DNA from: Rhodospirillaceae bacterium
Lineage (GTDB): Bacteria; Pseudomonadota; Alphaproteobacteria; GCA-2731375
Assembly (NCBI GenBank): GCA_018667855.1
Contig: JABIRL010000139.1
Coordinates: forward strand, 1 to 41,488
DNA length: 41,488 bases
Direction of reading: 5' to 3'
The notes under the pieces were generated by a model that saw nothing but the letters and a program-made list of their open reading frames with translations, made no database searches and had not been told where the DNA came from. The position numbers and the translations under genes were made by a program. Shown here piece by piece: positions 3,890-17,959 of the stretch (positions within the stretch are counted from its first letter, which is position 1; the number at the start of each line of letters is the position of its first letter).

Positions 3890-6145
3890 ATGAAACAATG
3901 TTTTGGCCGGGTTCCGAAAAGCATTCGTCGAGCCCGTATACCGCGGTTTGCCGGAATTCTATTTTTGACTTTGGCCATTTCTTGCGGATTGTTCGCCAAT
4001 CCGAGTTCGGCCGACCCCGTGAAATTAACTGGAAATTGTGCGTCTCTTTATGAAGCTTTTGAGCAATCCGGAGAATATTATCGCACTTTCGTCCTGGCAT
4101 TGGGCGACGACCACCACATATGCTCTTGGAGCACTTCGGCATCCGAAGCTGTATCAAAATGCATAGATCAAGTTTACGGACAGCGATTGCGTAAGAACGG
4201 CGAAGTCGCCATATGCGAGGAATATGCAAAATCGCCGGTCGATGGCCGACTAAAAATCGTTTGGGAAGACAATCGGACCCAAACGGCCAACCAAACGCCG
4301 CCACCTTCCCCCAAGCGCATGCAAAGGGAGGAAACCGCGCGACAATTTGCCGAGGCTGAAAGCAAACGAAAAAAGGCCGCGGCACTGAAATCTGCCGCTG
4401 CCGCGCAATTGTATAAGTGGATTGTTCAAGCCCAGAATGCACTTAGAGAGCTGTCACTCTATGATGGCCCCGACAATGGCGTTATGGGCGTCAAGACGCG
4501 CCGTGCCTATCAAACGTGGCTGAAGGCGAATAATTATCCACCGGAAAAAGCTCTTTCAGACGCCCTAGTGGCCGATCTCCGTCAGCAAGCTCAGGAAAAG
4601 AAGGCGCGGCGCGTTGCCAAAGCCAAAGCAGAGAGAGAAGAGAACGCTCGCAAACTCGCCGTGGCTAGCCGCAAGCGCACGGAAGCCGAAGCAAGAGAAG
4701 TGGCGCTCCATGCCAGATTATCAACGCAGGCTGACGCTTTGATGGCGGATGTTCAGGGGTTTCTAGCCGCCGATCCGGGCATCAAGAACATTTTGGAAGT
4801 CAGCATCGCCTTCTCCGACCTTGAGGCTGCCTTGGGTGAAAAACAGGGCAGGAAAAGCAGTGGCGCGGTGCGGAAAAGCATGGATCAGTTGAAAAAACTG
4901 GTCACCAAGAACAAAACCTTTCGTACCTTCCTGGCCAAGAAGGAAGAGGCTCGGAAAATGGCCGAGCTGAGCGCATTTGCCCTTAGTACCGCCAAGCTTG
5001 AAAGCTTTCACAAATTCCTGAAAGTCTATTTGGCCAAGAACCTCGGATCGAAATCCGCACGTCGTCTGATCCCGGTGATCAAGGAAATAAAGGCGACGCT
5101 GGGTGCGCCGACGAAAACAAATCTCGATGAATTATCGGCAAAAGTTGCGTCCCTGATCAATACGACGCCAAACCTCCGCAAGGCCTTTGCCAATCAAAAG
5201 TCCGCCGTTGAAATAGCTGCCGCCCGCGTGGCGTCCGAGGTCAAACGTAAATCCGACGCGGACAAAAAGTTGAAGGCGGAAGCAGCTGCTAAAGCCAAAG
5301 CCGACCGTAAGCGCCGGCTCGCCATGGCCAAAGGCAAACGACGCAGGGCTTTAGAGAAGAAGCACAAACATGCGATTGCGGTAATTATCGGCAACCGAAA
5401 TTATTCAGGCTCGGTGCCGGAGGTAAGTTTCGCCCATAACGACGCTGACGCGGTCCGTAAATTCGTCGTTGAAAAGCTTGGCTACAGAACGGGGAATGTC
5501 ATCGATATTCGCGATGCGAGCCAAGCCCGAATGATGGCTTTGTTCGGTACGGCTGATACCCACAAGGGGGAGCTTTACAGCTACGTCCGTCCGGGAAAAT
5601 CCGATGTAACCGTGTTTTATTCCGGTCATGGTGTTCCGGGCCTCGAGGACCGGCGCGGTTATCTGCTGCCGGTCGACGCCAACCCCAATCTGGTCGAGAT
5701 CAATGGCTATCCCGTGGATTTATTATTCAGCAATCTGACGAAAATAAATGCCAAATCGACAACTGTCTATTTGGATGCCTGTTTTTCAGGCGACAGCCCG
5801 AAGGGAATGCTGGTGCGCGCGGCGTCCGGTCTAACCGTAACACCAACGATGCCAGCCAAGATGCCCGGCATGATCGTTATCACCGCAGCCAAGGGTAACC
5901 AGTTCGCCAGTTGGGATGAAGATGCCAAACTGGGTCTTTTCACCAAACATCTTCTGATCGCCCTGAATGGCCTGGCGGACAATGAGGATTACGGCAACGG
6001 CGACGGTCGTATTTCGCTTTCCGAGGTCCGGACCTACCTTGATGAAGAAATGACTTATCAGGCACGGCGACGGTATAACCGCGAGCAGCAGGTATCGGTA
6101 CAGGGCGACTTGGGAGTGGTCCTGGTTGACAACGAAACCCGATAG
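3890..6145 (+). CDS. exported caspase-like (peptidase C14) protease with peptidoglycan-binding-like region
   Basis: A 751-residue protein. Residues 20-41 are a hydrophobic signal sequence ending in a likely SSA cleavage site, so it should leave the cytoplasm. Residues 49-115 form a small cysteine-containing domain of a kind often seen in secreted alphaproteobacterial proteins. A PG_binding_1-like segment (about 173-215, with DNGVMGVKTRRAYQTWL) follows, then a long Lys/Ala/Glu-rich coiled-coil region to about 485. The caspase-like domain starts at AIAVIIGNRNY; the dyad is His580 in FYSGHGVPG and Cys631 in YLDACFSG. An EF-hand-like loop (DYGNGDGRISLSE, from Asp700) suggests calcium control. A GGGAGGC site precedes the ATG. 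The gene is less GC-rich than its neighbours, hinting at transfer. Targets are unknown. Confidence 0.88.
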   Translation: MKQCFGRVPKSIRRARIPRFAGILFLTLAISCGLFANPSSADPVKLTGNCASLYEAFEQSGEYYRTFVLALGDDHHICSWSTSASEAVSKCIDQVYGQRLRKNGEVAICEEYAKSPVDGRLKIVWEDNRTQTANQTPPPSPKRMQREETARQFAEAESKRKKAAALKSAAAAQLYKWIVQAQNALRELSLYDGPDNGVMGVKTRRAYQTWLKANNYPPEKALSDALVADLRQQAQEKKARRVAKAKAEREENARKLAVASRKRTEAEAREVALHARLSTQADALMADVQGFLAADPGIKNILEVSIAFSDLEAALGEKQGRKSSGAVRKSMDQLKKLVTKNKTFRTFLAKKEEARKMAELSAFALSTAKLESFHKFLKVYLAKNLGSKSARRLIPVIKEIKATLGAPTKTNLDELSAKVASLINTTPNLRKAFANQKSAVEIAAARVASEVKRKSDADKKLKAEAAAKAKADRKRRLAMAKGKRRRALEKKHKHAIAVIIGNRNYSGSVPEVSFAHNDADAVRKFVVEKLGYRTGNVIDIRDASQARMMALFGTADTHKGELYSYVRPGKSDVTVFYSGHGVPGLEDRRGYLLPVDANPNLVEINGYPVDLLFSNLTKINAKSTTVYLDACFSGDSPKGMLVRAASGLTVTPTMPAKMPGMIVITAAKGNQFASWDEDAKLGLFTKHLLIALNGLADNEDYGNGDGRISLSEVRTYLDEEMTYQARRRYNREQQVSVQGDLGVVLVDNETR

Positions 6146-9352: not shown

Positions 9353-10102
9353 TTAGCTGCCGTCTGCGATACGCGGCGCGACCAACCGTTCACTCATGCG
9401 TTCCGTCAATGAACTTTGCGCCAGACCATCGCCGTCGAAATTGCCAGCATCCAGCCACGCGGCGATGGTTTTCCGCACCGCCGGCCAATCCGAATCCAGG
9501 ATGGAATACCAGGCGGTATCCCGGTTCAACCCCTTGAAAATCATGTGATTGTAAAATATGCCCTCGTATTTGAAGCCAAGACGCAGGGCGGCGTTGCGGG
9601 ATTTTTGGTTCAAGGCATTGCAGCGCCATTGCATGCGGCGATAACGCAGTTCCGTCATGGCGTAATCCAGCATCAGGAACAAGGCCTCGGTCGCGGCCTG
9701 GGTTCGCTGCAGGTCGGGGGCAAACCAGATACCGCCGATCTCGATCACGCCCTGAGATGGCTGGACATCCAGGTAACAGGCCATGCCCTTGATCCTGCCG
9801 CTGTCGCGGTGACGGAAGGCATACCAGATGTAATCGAAACTGGCGGCACAGCCTGCCAAATGGTCCAGGTAAGCGGCTTCCGTGCTCCATGGCCCCCAGG
9901 GCAGATAGGTCCAGATCTCCAACGCCTGATCGGTGCCGTGGGATACGGCATAAAGCTCCTTGCCATGAACGGCGGGGTCCAGGGGTTCGAGAATAATTTC
10001 CCGGCCCGTCATTTCTCGACGCGCGGGAACAAGGCCGCTCGGTGGATTGTCGACATGTTCACCGTTCAAGGGCCTCTCGAAGGCCGTTTCATGATCAGAC
10101 AT
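9353..10102 (-). CDS. GNAT-family N-acetyltransferase (RimJ/RimL-like)
   Basis: A 249-residue acetyltransferase. The GNAT core is visible as IKGMACYLDVQPSQGVIEIG, IWFAPDLQRTQAATEA (acetyl-CoA-binding loop region) and the closing ALNQKSRNAALRLGFKYEG, the typical RimJ/RimL ending. WTYLPWGPW near the start is common in this subgroup. It transfers an acyl group from acyl-CoA to an amine, either a protein N-terminus or a small molecule. Its ATG (10102) shares one base with the TGA of the thiolase upstream, an overlap that suggests translational coupling, with AGAAGGA lying in the thiolase end. A role in the surrounding acyl-CoA pathway is inference. Confidence 0.88.
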   Translation of the reverse strand: MSDHETAFERPLNGEHVDNPPSGLVPARREMTGREIILEPLDPAVHGKELYAVSHGTDQALEIWTYLPWGPWSTEAAYLDHLAGCAASFDYIWYAFRHRDSGRIKGMACYLDVQPSQGVIEIGGIWFAPDLQRTQAATEALFLMLDYAMTELRYRRMQWRCNALNQKSRNAALRLGFKYEGIFYNHMIFKGLNRDTAWYSILDSDWPAVRKTIAAWLDAGNFDGDGLAQSSLTERMSERLVAPRIADGS

Positions 10103-11355
10103 CAACTGTCCTTCTCCAAAATCGTGATACAGGCAGCGGCCTCTTCCACGCCCATGACGCCGCCGCCGTTTTCGGCCAGGGCCAGGCGCGCGCCGTCAAC
10201 CTGCCGGGCGCCGGCTTCGCCCCGCAACTGGCTGGTCAACTCATGGATCATGGACAGCCCGGTGGCGCCCACGGGATGCCCTTTGGAGACCAGGCCGCCG
10301 GAGGTATTCACGGGGATCTTGCCATCCAGCATGGTATGGCCGTCACCGACGAACTTGCCGCCTGCCCCGATATCGCAAAAGCCCATCATTTCCACCTGAT
10401 AGATCTCGCAAAATGATGTGGCGTCATGCACCTCCGCCACGTCGATATCCCCCGGCTTGATACCGGCGAAGGCATAAGCCTTGTCGGCCGCGATCTTGGT
10501 CAGGCCCGGTTCATCCAGGCTGCGGTACTTGCCGCCCGACATTGCCGATGCCTTGACCTTGACCGCGCGGTCGCGCACGGGGCCGGACAGATTGCGCAAA
10601 TAATCCTCGGAACACAGAATGGCGGCGGCGGCACCGTCACCGATGGGCGCGCACATGGCGCGAGTCAGAGGATAGCTGACCTCCCGGTCCGCCAATACCT
10701 CGTCCACGGACATTTCAAACTGGTACTGCGCCAGGGGATTGAGGGCGCCGTTGTTGTGGTTTTTCGCCGCCCCGGTGGCGATCTGCGCCTGGGTCGTGCC
10801 CCATTTTTTCATGTGATAGCTGGCCTGCATGGCGTAGGTATCCATGAAGATGGTGCGTCCCGGCCCGGTTTCGAACGGCTTACCCATGGCCTCGCCCTGC
10901 CGGCGGTAATGTTCCTGCCATTCTTCCGGATCCAGTTGGTCGATGCCGCCCGCGAACAATTCCATGGTCCGGGCCGGATCGTCGGGCACATAGGTCTTCT
11001 CCACGCCGATGGCCAGGGCCAGATGCGACTGGCCGGAGAGAATATCCTTCCAGGCACCGTTCATGGCCACGGACGAGGTCGCACAAGCATCCTCCACATT
11101 GACCATCGGCACCCGTTCGGGAAACAGGCCGTCCCGCACCAAGGGTGTGAAACAGACCTGGCCGCGAATGCAGGGCTGGCCGAAGGTCCCCAGCCCGCAA
11201 TTGCCGAAATAGGCGATATCGATGTCGCCGCCGTCATCCAGGCCGCTGTCGTCCAGGGCGCCCAGATAGGCGTCCCGGCTCAGATCCTTGAAGCTCTTGT
11301 TGGGCCATTTCTGAAAGCGCGTGGAATAACTGCCGATGATATAGACATCCGACAT
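10102..11355 (-). CDS. thiolase-family protein (SCP-x-like acetyl-CoA acyltransferase)
   Basis: A 417-residue thiolase of the SCP2/lipid-transfer type. The nucleophilic Cys is in VEDACATSSVAMNGA; His residues of the active site are in AEVHDATSFCEIYQ and in GGLVSKGHPVGATGLSM; the C-terminal glycine-rich loop is LAENGGGVMGVEEAA. A second catalytic Cys of biosynthetic thiolases is not in its usual C-terminal GG(C) place, which is normal for SCP-x-like enzymes. The family cleaves 3-ketoacyl-CoA, often with branched or ring-derived chains. It is the first gene of the minus-strand unit and starts 96 bases from the divergent EamA-exonuclease gene. Confidence 0.92.
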   Translation of the reverse strand: MSDVYIIGSYSTRFQKWPNKSFKDLSRDAYLGALDDSGLDDGGDIDIAYFGNCGLGTFGQPCIRGQVCFTPLVRDGLFPERVPMVNVEDACATSSVAMNGAWKDILSGQSHLALAIGVEKTYVPDDPARTMELFAGGIDQLDPEEWQEHYRRQGEAMGKPFETGPGRTIFMDTYAMQASYHMKKWGTTQAQIATGAAKNHNNGALNPLAQYQFEMSVDEVLADREVSYPLTRAMCAPIGDGAAAAILCSEDYLRNLSGPVRDRAVKVKASAMSGGKYRSLDEPGLTKIAADKAYAFAGIKPGDIDVAEVHDATSFCEIYQVEMMGFCDIGAGGKFVGDGHTMLDGKIPVNTSGGLVSKGHPVGATGLSMIHELTSQLRGEAGARQVDGARLALAENGGGVMGVEEAAACITILEKDS

Positions 11356-11451: not shown

Positions 11452-12945
11452 ATGCCCGTTCTGGCGATGCTTCTGGCTGCCTCCCTGTGGGCTTCTTCCA
11501 TGATCGGGGCCAAAGTCGCGGTCGCCGAGCTTGCGGTCGCGGAGGTGGTATCGGGCCGGTTTCTTTTTGCCGTCGCCATATTGTGGGCCATGGTTTTGCT
11601 GACCCGCCAGCCCGTGCGCCTGGCCGAGGCTAAACGGCCGCTGTTGATGGGCATGCTGGACCCGGGCCTGGTATCCCTGTTCATGGTCTGGGGCCTGTTT
11701 CATACCTCCGCCGTCAATGCCGCGGTCTTCTGGGCCCTGATGCCGTTGATCATGCCCCTGGCCGCCCGATTGGTATTGAAGGAGCCGATCAACCCCATGG
11801 TGGCGGTCGGCGCCATCCTCGCCGTTACCGGCGCTTTCATGCTGGTCAGGACCAACCAGGCGGCGGGCGAGGGTAATCTGTTCGGCGATTTGCTGGCTGT
11901 CTGTGGTGTGCTGTGTGCCATTTGCAGCTCCCTCCTGGCGCGCCGGGTGGCGCAGCAACAGGGCCGGCCCATGGTGACCACCGCCTGGCAGATGACCATG
12001 GCGCTTGTGGTCGGGGGCGTGGCATTCCTGATACTGGAAGAACCGGGCGCCTCGTATGACCGGGTCAGTCAGGGGCCGCTGCTGTTGCTGCTTTATCTGG
12101 GCGTGGTCGCCACGGCCGGGCCGTTCTTTCTGTTGAACTTCGCCCTGCGCCATTTGTCCGTGGGCCGGACATCATTGTTTGCCAGTCTGGTGGGGCCGCT
12201 ATCCGTACCCATGGCCGTCGTCTTCCTGGGCGAGACGATCCAGACAATGGAAATCGTCGCCATCGCCATTGTCATGCTGGGGGTTTTCCTGCCCACCCTG
12301 ATCAGCGGGGAGGTTCTGGCGCGGTTCCGCGGGCCAGCGGATACCCGTCGGCTCTCGGAATTGAATTTCGTGGTGTTCGATACAGAAACCACGGGTCTGA
12401 CGCCCAGGAGCGGTGATCGCATCATCCAAATCGCCGCCGTCCGTATCGTCGACGGCGTCATTCGCCGGGACCTGATCTTTGACGAACTGGTCTATCCGGC
12501 CCGGGTCATTCCGCCGCTCTCCACAACCATCCATGGGCTGACGGATGGGGATGTCGCCGACAGCCGCCCCATCGGACCGGTATTACAGGATTTTCATGAA
12601 TTCTGCGGTGACAGCGTCCTGGTCGCCCACAACGCCGCCTTTGATATGAAGTTCCTGGAGCTGGCCCGGCCGGACGGCGCACCGGTGTTTGAACAAACGG
12701 TCCTCGATACCCTGCTGCTTTCCGCCGTGCTGGAGCCGGGCGCCCGGGATCACGATCTCGATGCCCTTGCCGCCCGCCATGGCGCGACGTTCGAAGGCCG
12801 CCACACCGCCCTGGGCGACAGCCTAGCCACGGCAGAGGTCTTTCTTGCATTGTTGAAGTTAGCCGAGAAAGCGGAAACACTGGGTCAGTTGACGGCCATT
12901 TCCCGAAAAGCGCGTCGTTTTCGCCGCTTGCAGAAACAATATTAA
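11452..12945 (+). CDS. fusion of EamA/DMT transporter and DEDDh 3'-5' exonuclease (DnaQ-like)
   Basis: One 497-residue frame joins two unrelated modules. Residues 1-285 are an EamA (drug/metabolite transporter) domain with about ten membrane spans and two repeats; LKEPINPMVAVGAILAVTGA and FLGETIQTMEIVAIAIVMLG are typical repeat ends. After a short linker, residues 305-497 form an epsilon-type exonuclease: Asp310 and Glu312 in FDTETTG, Asp398 in AHNAAFDMKF, His451 and Asp456 in RHTALGDSLATAEVF, so all five DEDDh residues are present. The exonuclease would face the cytoplasm. No in-frame stop or obvious internal start with a ribosome-binding site separates the modules. The stop overlaps the stop of the convergent CBS/DUF294 gene in a shared TTAA. 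Substrates are unknown. Confidence 0.85.
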   Translation: MPVLAMLLAASLWASSMIGAKVAVAELAVAEVVSGRFLFAVAILWAMVLLTRQPVRLAEAKRPLLMGMLDPGLVSLFMVWGLFHTSAVNAAVFWALMPLIMPLAARLVLKEPINPMVAVGAILAVTGAFMLVRTNQAAGEGNLFGDLLAVCGVLCAICSSLLARRVAQQQGRPMVTTAWQMTMALVVGGVAFLILEEPGASYDRVSQGPLLLLLYLGVVATAGPFFLLNFALRHLSVGRTSLFASLVGPLSVPMAVVFLGETIQTMEIVAIAIVMLGVFLPTLISGEVLARFRGPADTRRLSELNFVVFDTETTGLTPRSGDRIIQIAAVRIVDGVIRRDLIFDELVYPARVIPPLSTTIHGLTDGDVADSRPIGPVLQDFHEFCGDSVLVAHNAAFDMKFLELARPDGAPVFEQTVLDTLLLSAVLEPGARDHDLDALAARHGATFEGRHTALGDSLATAEVFLALLKLAEKAETLGQLTAISRKARRFRRLQKQY

Positions 12946-14405
12946 AAGAGTTCGCCACTCAGATCGCTGCGCACCCGGTCGCGCAGGTCACGAATGGCCT
13001 TGAGGGCATCAACCAGTTGGTCGTCTTCCCGGTCCGTCAGGCTGTCGGGGTGAACATAGTTGCTGACGGCTTCGCCTTTACGCTGATCCGCCAATTGCTG
13101 GCGCAACAACAGATGCGTGATGTGATGGAAGGCGCCGGTCAGGTAATCCGCCTCGTCATTGTCCAGGACAGCCAGTTCCTTCAGTTTCGCGATACGAACC
13201 AAGGTACCGGTATCCGCCACGCCATTAAGTAGCGCCAGGGCACGAACGGCATCAACCAGGGGCAAGGTACCGGTGATCTTCAGGTTCAGCTCGCCGCGAT
13301 GGCCGGCGTCTTCTTTTTCCAGGATAAAGCGGTTGAAAAGGCCCAGGGCGACCCCGAAATGTTCATCCTGCAGAAACATGTCCCGCATAAAATGGCGGTT
13401 ATTCCGTAAGCGGCTTGTTATATAGTCACGCAATTCAGCGGCCAGGCGGCGCTCTCCCGCCACACCGCGAAAGTCAAAGAAGATATCCGCCAGACGCAGG
13501 GCCGCAGGGTTGCGCCGGTTGATCCAGTAATCCATCTGTGCCCGCCATTGGCTGGCGGTCTTGCGCCACAATGGGTTCACCGCCATGACATAGCCATTGC
13601 ACAACGGCATACCGGCGCCGTGCATGGCCTGGGTCACCCGATCGGCCAGTTCGGAAAAATAGCCGTCGATCCGGTCGTGCTCTGCATCGGGATAATCGGC
13701 GATGATCAGGCCGTTGTCCTGATCCGGGTTCAGATAACTTTCCTGGCGCCCGCCCGAACCCATGACGATCAGGCAAAAATCACGGGGCGGCGGCCCATGC
13801 CCGGCATATCCCATGGCGCGGATGCAATGGCGCGTCAGGCGACGGTAGACATCATTGTTAATGTGGCTGACCAGGGCCTGGATATCCGGCGTCGGCACCT
13901 GGTCGGCCATTAACTGCTCCGCCACCAGCAACTGCGCCGCCCGGACCTGGGTCATGCCGTCCGGCGTTTCGGGCTGGGTCAGGTTTTCGATCTGTTCGAC
14001 CAATTGGCTGTTGATAGTGACCAGGGTGCTGTCTAGGGTCAGCATGCCGACCAGTTGGTCGCGGGCATCGACCACGGGCATATGATGCAAGCCGGCCCTG
14101 CGCATGCGGGCGACGGCATGAAACATCAAATCCTCGGCCCGGATCACCCGCACCGGCTGGCTCATGATGGTATCAAGGGGGCTGCCGGCATCCAGGCGGA
14201 ATGCCACCTTGCGCACCACATCTTGTTCCGTCAGCACGCCCCGTGGAATGTTGTTTGCATCGACCGCGACCACGCAGTCAGCGGTGGCCTCCGCCAACAG
14301 CGCCACCGCTTCCCCGACGCTGCTGCCCAGGGGCAGGGTGGGGGGTGCGGCGAGCATGTGTTCGCCGGCCAATCGCCGAAACGCCATGGCACGGGATAAC
14401 GGCAT
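12942..14405 (-). CDS. CBS-domain/DUF294 putative nucleotidyltransferase
   Basis: A 487-residue signalling-type protein. Two CBS motifs occupy about residues 15-135 (GVLTEQDVVRKVAF and HHMPVVDARDQLVGMLTLD) and probably bind adenine nucleotides. The DUF294 nucleotidyltransferase-like part carries GSGGRQESYLNPDQDNGLI, which matches the G-G-R-x-E...D-x-D pattern of the GlnD-type fold, and a DUF294 C-terminal helical domain follows. Its substrate is not known for the family in general. The ATG at 14405 has AAAAGGGG upstream; an in-frame GTG at 14438 would add eleven residues. It lies 41 bases downstream of the indolepyruvate oxidoreductase gene and may be cotranscribed with it. Confidence 0.88.
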   Translation of the reverse strand: MPLSRAMAFRRLAGEHMLAAPPTLPLGSSVGEAVALLAEATADCVVAVDANNIPRGVLTEQDVVRKVAFRLDAGSPLDTIMSQPVRVIRAEDLMFHAVARMRRAGLHHMPVVDARDQLVGMLTLDSTLVTINSQLVEQIENLTQPETPDGMTQVRAAQLLVAEQLMADQVPTPDIQALVSHINNDVYRRLTRHCIRAMGYAGHGPPPRDFCLIVMGSGGRQESYLNPDQDNGLIIADYPDAEHDRIDGYFSELADRVTQAMHGAGMPLCNGYVMAVNPLWRKTASQWRAQMDYWINRRNPAALRLADIFFDFRGVAGERRLAAELRDYITSRLRNNRHFMRDMFLQDEHFGVALGLFNRFILEKEDAGHRGELNLKITGTLPLVDAVRALALLNGVADTGTLVRIAKLKELAVLDNDEADYLTGAFHHITHLLLRQQLADQRKGEAVSNYVHPDSLTDREDDQLVDALKAIRDLRDRVRSDLSGELF

Positions 14406-14446
14406 CCACTTGCCCCTTTTCGCACGGGACCTACGCACCCATGGAA

Positions 14447-17400
14447 TTACTCGGCGGCGGTCGGCCGCTTCGATGGCGCGTGGTACAATTCCAACATTTC
14501 CGCCTCGTTCTTTTTGGCCTGGGCCAAGGCCTTTTCCTTGACGTGGCCAAAACCACGAATGCGGTCCGGTACTTCCGCGATGTTTACCGCCATGGCGTGG
14601 TTGTCATGGTCCAATACGGCAAGAACCGCACCGATTGTTTTTTCGTAATCGGCAATCAATTGCCGTTCCATACGCCGTTCCGCCGTGCGGCCGAAAATAT
14701 CGAAAGCGCCGCCGCGCAATCCCTTCATGCGGGCCAGCAGCGGCATCAGCTTCAGCATCCAGGGGCCGAACTCCCGCTTTTGCAGATGGCCGCTGTCCGG
14801 GTGCCGCCTGGCGATCAGGGGCGGGGCCATATGCAGACGCAGGCTGAAATCGCCCTCGAACTGTTGGTTAACCTGATCCATGAAGCGGCCGTCCGTATAC
14901 AGCCGCGCCACTTCATATTCATCCTTGCAGGCCATCAGGCGGAAGAAATTCAGGGCCACGGCTTCCGACAAGCCGTCCAGACCGGCGGCCCGGTTTTGCT
15001 CCGCCGCGCGAGCCGTATCGACCAGCGCCACATAACGCTGGGCATAGGCCGCGTCCTGGTAGTCCGTCAGATAATCCGACCGGCGGGCGATCTGCTGCTC
15101 CAGGGTCAGGGCCTCCGCCTTGCCCTCCTGCTTCGGTATCAGGGGCGCGGCGATGGTTTCCACCGCGGCCGGGTCATGGGCCGCCAGGCGGCCCCAGGCA
15201 AAGGCCAGTTTGTTGGCCGCCACGGCCACGCCGTTGATTTCGATGGCGCCTTCGATGGCTTCCAGGGTCAGGGGCAGATAACCGAACTGATAGGCCGCGC
15301 CCAGCAGGAACAGGTTGGTGGCGATGGAATCCCCCAACAGCGCCGTGGCGATCTTGGTCGCATTGAGGAAATGGCTGAAGTCCTTGCCCACGGCCTTCTG
15401 TAACTCGGCGACCAGATTTTCGCCCGCCATCTCCATATCCTGATCGGCCAGGAACTGCGCCGTCGGCACCACGTGGCTGTTGATCACCGCGCCGGTGACC
15501 CCTTCGTTGACGGTGGACAACACGTCCGGGCCGGCGGCGACAACGATGTCGCAGCCCAGGATCAGCTTGGAACCACCGGTGGCGATGCGCACGGCGTGCA
15601 GATCCTCCGGCGTATCGGAAATACGGATATGAGACGTCACGGCGCCGTTTTTCTGCGCCAGACCGGCCATGTCCAGGGCCGAGACGCCCTTGCCCATTAT
15701 ATGCGCCGCCATGCCCAGCAGGGCCGAGACGGTGACGACGCCGGTGCCGCCGATGCCGGTGATCAGAATGCCAAAAGGTTCCGCCGACGACGGCAGCGTC
15801 GGCGTCGGCAGCCCGGCGAACAATTCATCCCAATTGGCGCCGCCGTCCGCCGCGCTGGTCGGCTTTTGCGCCTTGCGCAGGTTGCCGCCATGGACCGTGA
15901 CGAAACTGGGGCAGAAGCCGTTGACGCAGGAAAAATCCTTGTTGCAGTTGGATTGATCAATCTGCCGCTTGCGGCCCCATTCGGTTTCCTTGGGCAGTAC
16001 CGAGACACAGTTCGAGGCGACGGAGCAATCGCCGCAGGCCTCGCACACCAGATCATTAATGAACGCCCGCTTGGCCGGGTCCGGAAACAGGCCCCGCTTA
16101 CGCCGCCGCCGCTTCTCCGCCGCGCAGGTCTGGTCATAGATCAGCACCGTGGTACCGGGCGTGGCCCGCAGGTCCTTTTGCACCTGGTCCAGGTCGTCGC
16201 GGTGATGAATGGTGGTGCCCGGCGCCCAGTTGGTGCCGATGGGGTATTTATCCGGCTCGTCCGTGACCAGGGCGATCTTTGTGATGCCCTCGGCGTGGAC
16301 CTGGCGGCTGATCTCGTCCGGGGTCAGTTTACCGTCTTCCACATTGACCACCGGCTGGCCGCCGGTCATGGCCACGGCGTCGTTGAACAGAATCTTGTAG
16401 GTGATGTTGACACCGGCATCGACGGCGGCCCGGATCGCCAACAGGCCGGAATGGTAATAGGTGCCGTCACCGAGGTTCTGGAAAATATGATCGGTCTTGG
16501 AAAACGGCGCCTGGCCGATCCAATTGACGCCCTCGGCGCCCATGTGGGTAATGGTCTGGGTATTGCGGTCGGGCATCCACAGGGCCATGCCGTGACAGCC
16601 GATACCGGCCATGGAGCGGCTGCCGTCCGGCGTCCGGGTCGAGGTGTTGTGCGGACAGCCGGAACAAAAATAGGGCGTGCGCAAAATGGTCGGCGGCGAA
16701 CCCTGGGCGCCGCTTTCGATCTGTTCGATGCGCGCCAGACGCTGATCGAAATCCGGCATTTCGCTGAAGGTTTTCAGCCGACCCACGATGGACCGGGCCA
16801 CCATGCCCGGTGTCAGTTCGCCAATCTCCGGCAGCAGGATCTGATTGTTTTCGTCCCGTTTACCGACAATGCGGCGCGGAGCGTCCATCTGGCCATACAG
16901 CAATGTGCGCAACTGGTCTTCCAGGATCGGGCGCTTTTCCTCGACCACCACAATCTCTTCCAGGCCCTTGGCGAATTCCAGGGCGCCATGGGGTTCCAGC
17001 GGCCAGGTCATGGCTACCTTATAAAGGCGGATGCCCATATCAGCGGCCATTTCGGCTGTCAGACCCAATTCGTCAAAGGCCTGCCGCACATCCAAATAGG
17101 CCTTGCCGGTGGTAACGATGCCCAGGCGCGCCTTGGGACTATCGAAAATCAGTTTGTCCAGGCCGTTGGCGCGCACATAGGCCTGGGCCGCCGGCAGCTT
17201 GTGCTCCAGCAGCCGGCTTTCCTTTTCCATGACCCCGTCGGGATACCGCAGGTTCAGGCCGCCATCGGGCATATGGAAATCGATCTGCTTGGCGATCTGC
17301 ACCGCTTCGGGATCAATATTGACCGAAGCCGAGCTTTCCACCGTCTCACCCACAGCCTTGAAACCCACCGCGCAGCCGGAAAACCGCGACATGGCGAAAC

Positions 17401-17959
17401 CGTGCAGGCCCAAATCCAGATATTCCTGCACACCGGCGGGATGGAACACGGGCACCCCGGCCGCCATGAAGGCCGGCTCGCTTTGATGGGGCAGGGTCGA
17501 GGATTTGGCGCCATGGTCATCGCCGGCAACCAGCAGCACGCCGCCGTATTGAGATGTCCCGTCATAGTTCAAATGCTTGATGGCGTCGCCGCTGCGGTCC
17601 ACGCCGGGGCCCTTGCCATACCAGATACCGAAGACGCCGTCGTATTTGCCGCCCGACCACAAATTCACCTGTTGCGTGCCCCAGACGGCGGTGACCGCAA
17701 GATCCTCGTTCAAGCCGGGTTGAAATTTGATATGGCTGCGGGAGAGAAAGCGCTGCGCCGACCACAGGGCGGCGTCGTATCCGCCCAAGGGCGAACCCCG
17801 ATAGCCTGAGATAAAGCCGGCCGTGTTCAAACCGGCCGCCACATCCCGCTGCCGCTGCAACATGGGCAGGCGCACCAGGGCTTGCATGCCGGTCATGAAG
17901 ACCCGGCCCTGTTCCTGTTCGTATTTGTCGTCCAGCGTTACGGCGGCGGCGGTGCTCAT
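14447..17959 (-). CDS. indolepyruvate ferredoxin oxidoreductase, fused alpha-gamma type
   Basis: A 1170-residue cytoplasmic enzyme that oxidatively decarboxylates aryl 2-oxoacids such as indolepyruvate to acyl-CoA, passing electrons to ferredoxin. In order: N-terminal thiamine-pyrophosphate pyrimidine domain, starting near GFISGYRGSPLGGYD; TPP-binding region with CSGCPHNTSTR and GIGCHGMALW; a cysteine-rich iron-sulfur segment (CEACGDCSVASNC and NCNKDFSCVNGFC); then the gamma-subunit domain with GITGIGGTGVVTVSALLGM; and a long C-terminal region (DUF6537-like). The fused layout is usual for proteobacterial versions, unlike the split IorA/IorB of archaea. The start has GGGGACC upstream. The product, arylacetyl-CoA, would suit aromatic amino acid breakdown. 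Confidence 0.93.
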   Translation of the reverse strand: MSTAAAVTLDDKYEQEQGRVFMTGMQALVRLPMLQRQRDVAAGLNTAGFISGYRGSPLGGYDAALWSAQRFLSRSHIKFQPGLNEDLAVTAVWGTQQVNLWSGGKYDGVFGIWYGKGPGVDRSGDAIKHLNYDGTSQYGGVLLVAGDDHGAKSSTLPHQSEPAFMAAGVPVFHPAGVQEYLDLGLHGFAMSRFSGCAVGFKAVGETVESSASVNIDPEAVQIAKQIDFHMPDGGLNLRYPDGVMEKESRLLEHKLPAAQAYVRANGLDKLIFDSPKARLGIVTTGKAYLDVRQAFDELGLTAEMAADMGIRLYKVAMTWPLEPHGALEFAKGLEEIVVVEEKRPILEDQLRTLLYGQMDAPRRIVGKRDENNQILLPEIGELTPGMVARSIVGRLKTFSEMPDFDQRLARIEQIESGAQGSPPTILRTPYFCSGCPHNTSTRTPDGSRSMAGIGCHGMALWMPDRNTQTITHMGAEGVNWIGQAPFSKTDHIFQNLGDGTYYHSGLLAIRAAVDAGVNITYKILFNDAVAMTGGQPVVNVEDGKLTPDEISRQVHAEGITKIALVTDEPDKYPIGTNWAPGTTIHHRDDLDQVQKDLRATPGTTVLIYDQTCAAEKRRRRKRGLFPDPAKRAFINDLVCEACGDCSVASNCVSVLPKETEWGRKRQIDQSNCNKDFSCVNGFCPSFVTVHGGNLRKAQKPTSAADGGANWDELFAGLPTPTLPSSAEPFGILITGIGGTGVVTVSALLGMAAHIMGKGVSALDMAGLAQKNGAVTSHIRISDTPEDLHAVRIATGGSKLILGCDIVVAAGPDVLSTVNEGVTGAVINSHVVPTAQFLADQDMEMAGENLVAELQKAVGKDFSHFLNATKIATALLGDSIATNLFLLGAAYQFGYLPLTLEAIEGAIEINGVAVAANKLAFAWGRLAAHDPAAVETIAAPLIPKQEGKAEALTLEQQIARRSDYLTDYQDAAYAQRYVALVDTARAAEQNRAAGLDGLSEAVALNFFRLMACKDEYEVARLYTDGRFMDQVNQQFEGDFSLRLHMAPPLIARRHPDSGHLQKREFGPWMLKLMPLLARMKGLRGGAFDIFGRTAERRMERQLIADYEKTIGAVLAVLDHDNHAMAVNIAEVPDRIRGFGHVKEKALAQAKKNEAEMLELYHAPSKRPTAAE

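Follow-up and report, generated by a model that had tools for sequence, protein, structure and literature searches.

Why would a complete transporter fold be joined, in a single polypeptide, to an intact exonuclease, and with which partner does each half work? The question is raised by a gene in the window, i.e. the whole stretch of 41,488 nucleotides of DNA from a Rhodospirillaceae bacterium that was analysed. The original prediction, made from the sequence letters, had described this gene as a fusion of an EamA transporter and a DnaQ-like exonuclease, and had suggested that nuclease breakdown could be coupled to export. The relevant features of the locus are listed here with window coordinates, strand and supporting evidence.

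10102..11355, minus strand: thiolase-domain protein, divergent, given as context (Pfam; conserved neighbour)
11452..12945, plus strand: EamA-exonuclease fusion gene, 497 aa (open reading frame; full-length homologues in nine other genomes)
11452..12300, plus strand: EamA/DMT transporter half, residues 2–283 (two Pfam EamA matches, AlphaFold2 helices, YddG/LicB fold, loop charges)
12301..12363, plus strand: junction and linker, residues 284–304 (low pLDDT; start of the apparently independent deletions in relatives)
12364..12945, plus strand: DEDDh (DnaQ/PolC-like) exonuclease half (Pfam RNase_T, 2p1j, fold match, conserved residues)
12942..14438, minus strand: CBS-DUF294-DUF294_C nucleotidyltransferase, convergent, overlapping the fusion stop by 4 bases (Pfam)
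14447..17959, minus strand: indolepyruvate-ferredoxin-oxidoreductase-like 2-oxoacid enzyme (IOR; POR and DUF6537 domains; Pfam, conserved neighbour)

Architecture and reality of the fusion

The reading frame contains no internal stop. Pfam assigned EamA to two stretches of the protein (E 8e-33) and RNase_T (PF00929) to residues 307–464 (E 7e-29, above the cut-off), and found no domains in it other than EamA, TPT and RNase_T. Catalytic residues D310, E312, D398, H451 and D456 are all present and are conserved in every fused homologue, and the motifs FDTETTG, HNAAFD and RHTA(L/A)GD recur in 10/10 of these proteins. By sequence, the exonuclease half matched the PolC exonuclease 2p1j (E 7e-23), and no match among solved structures was obtained for the EamA half. 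The AlphaFold model of the fusion protein (mean pLDDT 85, pTM 0.69) comprises ten transmembrane helices up to residue 283, a low-confidence hinge at residues 291–295 and a complete nuclease. In fold searches, the transporter half matched LicB and YddG (5i20; TM-score 0.80 on target), and the nuclease half matched PolC, Pol III epsilon and ExoX. Loops of the EamA half carry 12 K/R residues on the cytoplasmic side versus one on the periplasmic side; since the cytoplasmic loops are the richer ones, both ends of EamA, and hence the nuclease, are predicted to be cytoplasmic. The linker measures ~20 residues in the window's protein and ~50 in two outlying genera.

With two EamA repeats, ten transmembrane helices and a YddG-like fold, the first half is an EamA/DMT transporter, for which transport is predicted. 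The RNase_T profile and the D, E, D, H, D set identify the second half at the sequence level as a DEDDh exonuclease with putative enzymatic activity. The original description of a single gene encoding a full ten-span transporter fold, five intact catalytic residues at the given positions and a linker of about 20 residues was accurate for the window's protein. Separately, contigs C2 and C10 of another genome (G039, L017) carry about nine EamA homologues in tandem, of which two contain an internal stop.

The full-length fusion was found in ten genomes of three genera, namely eight of the window's genus (window included) plus G011 and G014, and the nine other copies share 56–81% identity. Comparison of these relatives, which had been proposed as a check, showed a continuous junction in all ten; no pair of genes split by a stop and a start near 12300–12360 was found, and only loss of the whole nuclease half was seen. 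In G010, no ATG, GTG or TTG codon occurs from the last helix to the active site, so that its fusion must be one polypeptide. An internal start yielding a separate nuclease was rejected because candidate start codons differ among genomes and are missing in G010. A frameshift, a misassembly or a chimeric contig as the source of the fusion has negligible probability: every named fusion-bearing genome is metagenome-assembled, but independent assemblies from different projects agree on both junction and neighbours, and ten concordant genomes refute an artefact. Among the fused homologues, dN/dS is 0.07–0.19 for the exonuclease and 0.15–0.33 for EamA, and these low values indicate purifying selection on both halves. 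The combination had been called unusual, and it is indeed rare: the phylum sample of 398 genomes held no further EamA + exonuclease protein at E ≤ 1e-40, and the literature searched contained nothing relevant on an EamA-DnaQ or EamA-exonuclease fusion.

Origin of the fusion and its DUF294 neighbour

The search for exonuclease relatives covered a class-level set of 385 genomes and a phylum-level set of 398. The family is widespread in Proteobacteria, and its usual N-terminal half is a pair of membrane helices together with a PAS-type region, which bears out the earlier remark that exonucleases of this subgroup sometimes carry membrane segments; such segments are the family's usual state. Bare anchors of one or two transmembrane helices occur in three relatives (G326, G015 and G126), and three others (G013, G393 and G051) have no membrane part. 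Proteins of the 2TM-PAS-RNase_T type from Alpha- and other Proteobacteria (G021/L043, G197/L088, G092/L091) are members of the fusion nuclease's family, at 50–54% identity, and like the fusion they have a tail-to-tail DUF294 neighbour; they differ in bearing a two-helix/PAS sensor at the N-terminus, where the fusion has EamA. The window's protein thus lacks a sensor half that is usual, not universal or defining, in the family.

In the exonuclease tree, the fused proteins form one clade (support 96/86), which joins sensor-type members at a fork supported by 97/92. One fused clade implies a single origin of the fusion; several independent fusions are not favoured, as this clade holds all fused exonucleases. 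A motif, RPEFYDF, is strongly conserved between sensor and nuclease in most sensor-type relatives (e.g. L043, L088 and L091). It is missing from the EamA fusions, and the earliest-branching fused protein, that of G014, keeps a look-alike, ARPVYHP, which by its sequence looks like a remnant of the motif. Most likely, as judged by comparison with the relatives, the sensor half was exchanged for EamA once, in place, in the ancestor of the window's bacterial family.

The order thiolase, fusion, DUF294 and IOR is common to most members of the genus, and the nucleotidyltransferase motif GSGGRQESYLNPDQD is intact in the window's DUF294 protein. Elsewhere in the window, a 751-aa reading frame (3890–6145, plus strand) has a caspase-like (Peptidase_C14) domain at residues 496–699. 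Across 28 alphaproteobacterial exonuclease loci, CBS-DUF294 lies in the same 7.5–14 kb locus as the exonuclease in 22, and was not found within the stretch read in the other six. The two genes are commonly tail-to-tail there, with a gap of 8–53 bases; in the window they overlap by 4 bases. Coordinate comparison placed DUF294 within ~7 kb of the exonuclease in 15/18 further genomes from the phylum sample, and the pair is common in Proteobacteria. Exonuclease, CBS and DUF294 even form one protein in G071, where a single reading frame (L102:5179-7314) encodes exonuclease, CBS pair, DUF294 and DUF294_C; a second single reading frame for exonuclease-CBS-DUF294 is likely at G586:C1:845406-846968. 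Gene adjacency and tree placement assign the window's fusion to this DUF294-partner exonuclease family. DUF294_C has been grouped with the C-terminal domain of GlnD/GlnE (PMC3710099), and no biochemical function of the DUF294/exonuclease pair is known in the literature searched.

Joint loss of nuclease and DUF294

Three genomes (G008, G005 and L039) carry a standalone EamA gene, and each groups with a different fused relative. G005 groups with fused G009 (EamA tree 100/99, IOR tree 99/99) and L039 with fused G004 (EamA tree 91/88, IOR tree 100/98). G008 groups with fused G000 and G001 (84/81 with G000 in the EamA tree; 100/99 for the trio in the IOR tree). This nesting beside different fused relatives led us to reject the view that the standalone genes represent the state before fusion. 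L039 (PCAU01000009.1) is titled 'Acidobacteria bacterium', has the gene block of the window's genus and nests inside that genus in the trees, so that it is probably a mislabelled or contaminated bin.

The DNA itself preserves the breakpoints, with the IOR gene (14447..17959 in the window) marking the far side of the deletions. At loci L045 and L037 (genomes G008 and G005), it runs from the EamA/nuclease junction straight to the end of IOR. In L039, it runs from that junction to residue 76 of DUF294, leaving residues 15–76 as a remnant. The breakpoint in L045 corresponds to window position 12333, and those in L039 and L037 fall at equivalent positions. Apart from the L039 remnant, DUF294 is absent from all three standalone-EamA loci; whole-genome searches of G005 and G008 returned none, and L039 was judged at its locus. 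The remaining EamA genes are strongly constrained, with pairwise dN/dS of 0.08–0.21. The simplest reading of these sequences is that three separate deletions took the nuclease half together with DUF294 and spared EamA. Genome G003, in which all three parts are missing, was left out of the tally of losses; its best IOR match is 59% identical, its contamination is 7% and its placement is doubtful.

Deletion of nuclease and DUF294 together, with EamA kept, indicates that the nuclease works with DUF294 and that the transporter can work without the nuclease. Because of their co-conservation and the three joint deletions, exonuclease and DUF294 nucleotidyltransferase very likely form one functional unit. 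The locus thereby amounts to a natural genetic dissection, in which the membrane half appears to have been swapped once, and nuclease and DUF294 to have been co-deleted three times with the transporter kept; swap and joint deletions reveal which parts work together.

Role of the EamA half and comparison with known systems

With moderate confidence, we read the fusion as a membrane-anchored DEDDh exonuclease of the CBS-DUF294-partner family in which EamA replaces the sensor, and which acts as a functional unit with DUF294 in one arm of a carbon-metabolism switch. The EamA half would tether the exonuclease to the membrane's inner face, and may also signal the presence of its small-molecule substrate. 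The exonuclease would strip nucleotides, either from RNA 3' ends or in the form of nucleotidyl groups that the CBS-regulated DUF294 enzyme had attached, and would oppose or follow the CBS-controlled nucleotidyltransferase, with the direction of regulation provisional. In carbon (organic-acid) metabolism, such nucleotide removal would then act as one arm of a switch.

A passive anchor accounts for the data equally well. That EamA is an anchor only, an unrelated transporter attached by a near-neutral gene joining that merely keeps the nuclease at the membrane, is a possibility we entertain tentatively. Relatives with one or two bare transmembrane helices, or with none, indicate that the anchor is replaceable, and EamA and nuclease have proved separable in evolution. 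Against this, the fusion persists in three genera with zero cases of a split in which both genes survive, and the linker has shortened instead of drifting.

Conversely, EamA and exonuclease may form a working transceptor, in which metabolite transport or binding by EamA alters exonuclease activity in the manner of the SLC5-type domains of CrbS-like histidine kinases. EamA does occupy the position of the former sensor half, the short linker is retained across the genus, and transporter genes recur beside the exonuclease/DUF294 pair, both at loci with an SSF gene and in Pseudomonas aeruginosa, with actP (PMC9927547). A gene for an SSF sodium:solute symporter lies ≤10 kb from the exonuclease in 15/28 genomes, often as the sole strong SSF of its genome. 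Among five SSF proteins analysed with NCBIfam, three (G015, G047 and G195) score above the cut-off for VC_2705 and so belong to that family; the cut-off was not reached by the SSF near the G126 exonuclease or by the SSF on another contig of the window's genome. However, EamA has a job of its own, surviving alone under constraint after nuclease loss in three lineages; moreover, STAC, PAS or comparable coupling domains are missing from the linker, and the AlphaFold2 model puts a low-confidence hinge in it. We consider a transceptor unlikely. A more elaborate version, in which a DEDDh exonuclease is informed of metabolite flux directly by a DMT transporter and opposes CBS-regulated DUF294 in a writer/eraser nucleotide switch, appears more unlikely still.

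Export by the attached EamA domain of nucleotides or short oligonucleotides made by the exonuclease is very improbable. Nucleotide-sugar transporters do figure among the DMT-superfamily relatives and were present in the fold search, but the nearest folds among transporters are those of YddG and of LicB, a choline importer, and relatives of the nuclease lack such a transporter fusion. The nuclease, furthermore, was lost along with DUF294 and not with EamA, which persists alone and constrained in three lineages, and the partner conserved with it throughout Proteobacteria is DUF294, a nucleotidyltransferase rather than an exporter. The originally suggested coupling of breakdown to export is not supported by these observations; the data are better fitted by a membrane-anchored regulatory nuclease for which EamA serves as the anchor and may also sense a ligand.

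As to known systems, the EamA half shares its 10-TM fold with YddG and LicB of the DMT superfamily, for which no member with a nuclease half was found in the literature searched. The nuclease half has the fold and all five catalytic residues of the DEDDh exonucleases PolC, DnaQ and ExoX and, unlike these, has no polymerase partner and is membrane-tethered. The nearest studied pair, PP_0353 and PP_0354 of Pseudomonas putida, comprises an RNase_T exonuclease and a CBS partner, and is an analogue of the window's pair by domain content and partner, its exonuclease being no more than a candidate orthologue. The two genes form an operon bound directly by the acetate regulator ErdR and are included in the MxtR/ErdR (CrbS/R) regulon; deletion of PP_0353 impaired growth on pyruvate, deletion of PP_0354 had no phenotype, and the P. 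aeruginosa homologues adjoin the actP/yjcH transporter genes (PMC9927547). In P. fluorescens, Pflu5625 belongs to the CrbS/R gene set and encodes a CBS-nucleotidyltransferase protein; its mutant likewise had no phenotype (PMC5715377). In contrast to the window's exonuclease, PP_0353 has no reported transporter fusion. Pfam found no SSF/SLC5 domain, STAC or histidine kinase in the fusion protein, which places it outside the CrbS-like proteins. The CrbS-type sensor kinases (SLC5 symporter-STAC-histidine kinase; PMC5715377) nonetheless resemble it in having a complete N-terminal transporter fold ahead of a cytoplasmic effector; they differ in that the transporter is of another superfamily, STAC is present, and a kinase stands where the fusion has its nuclease.
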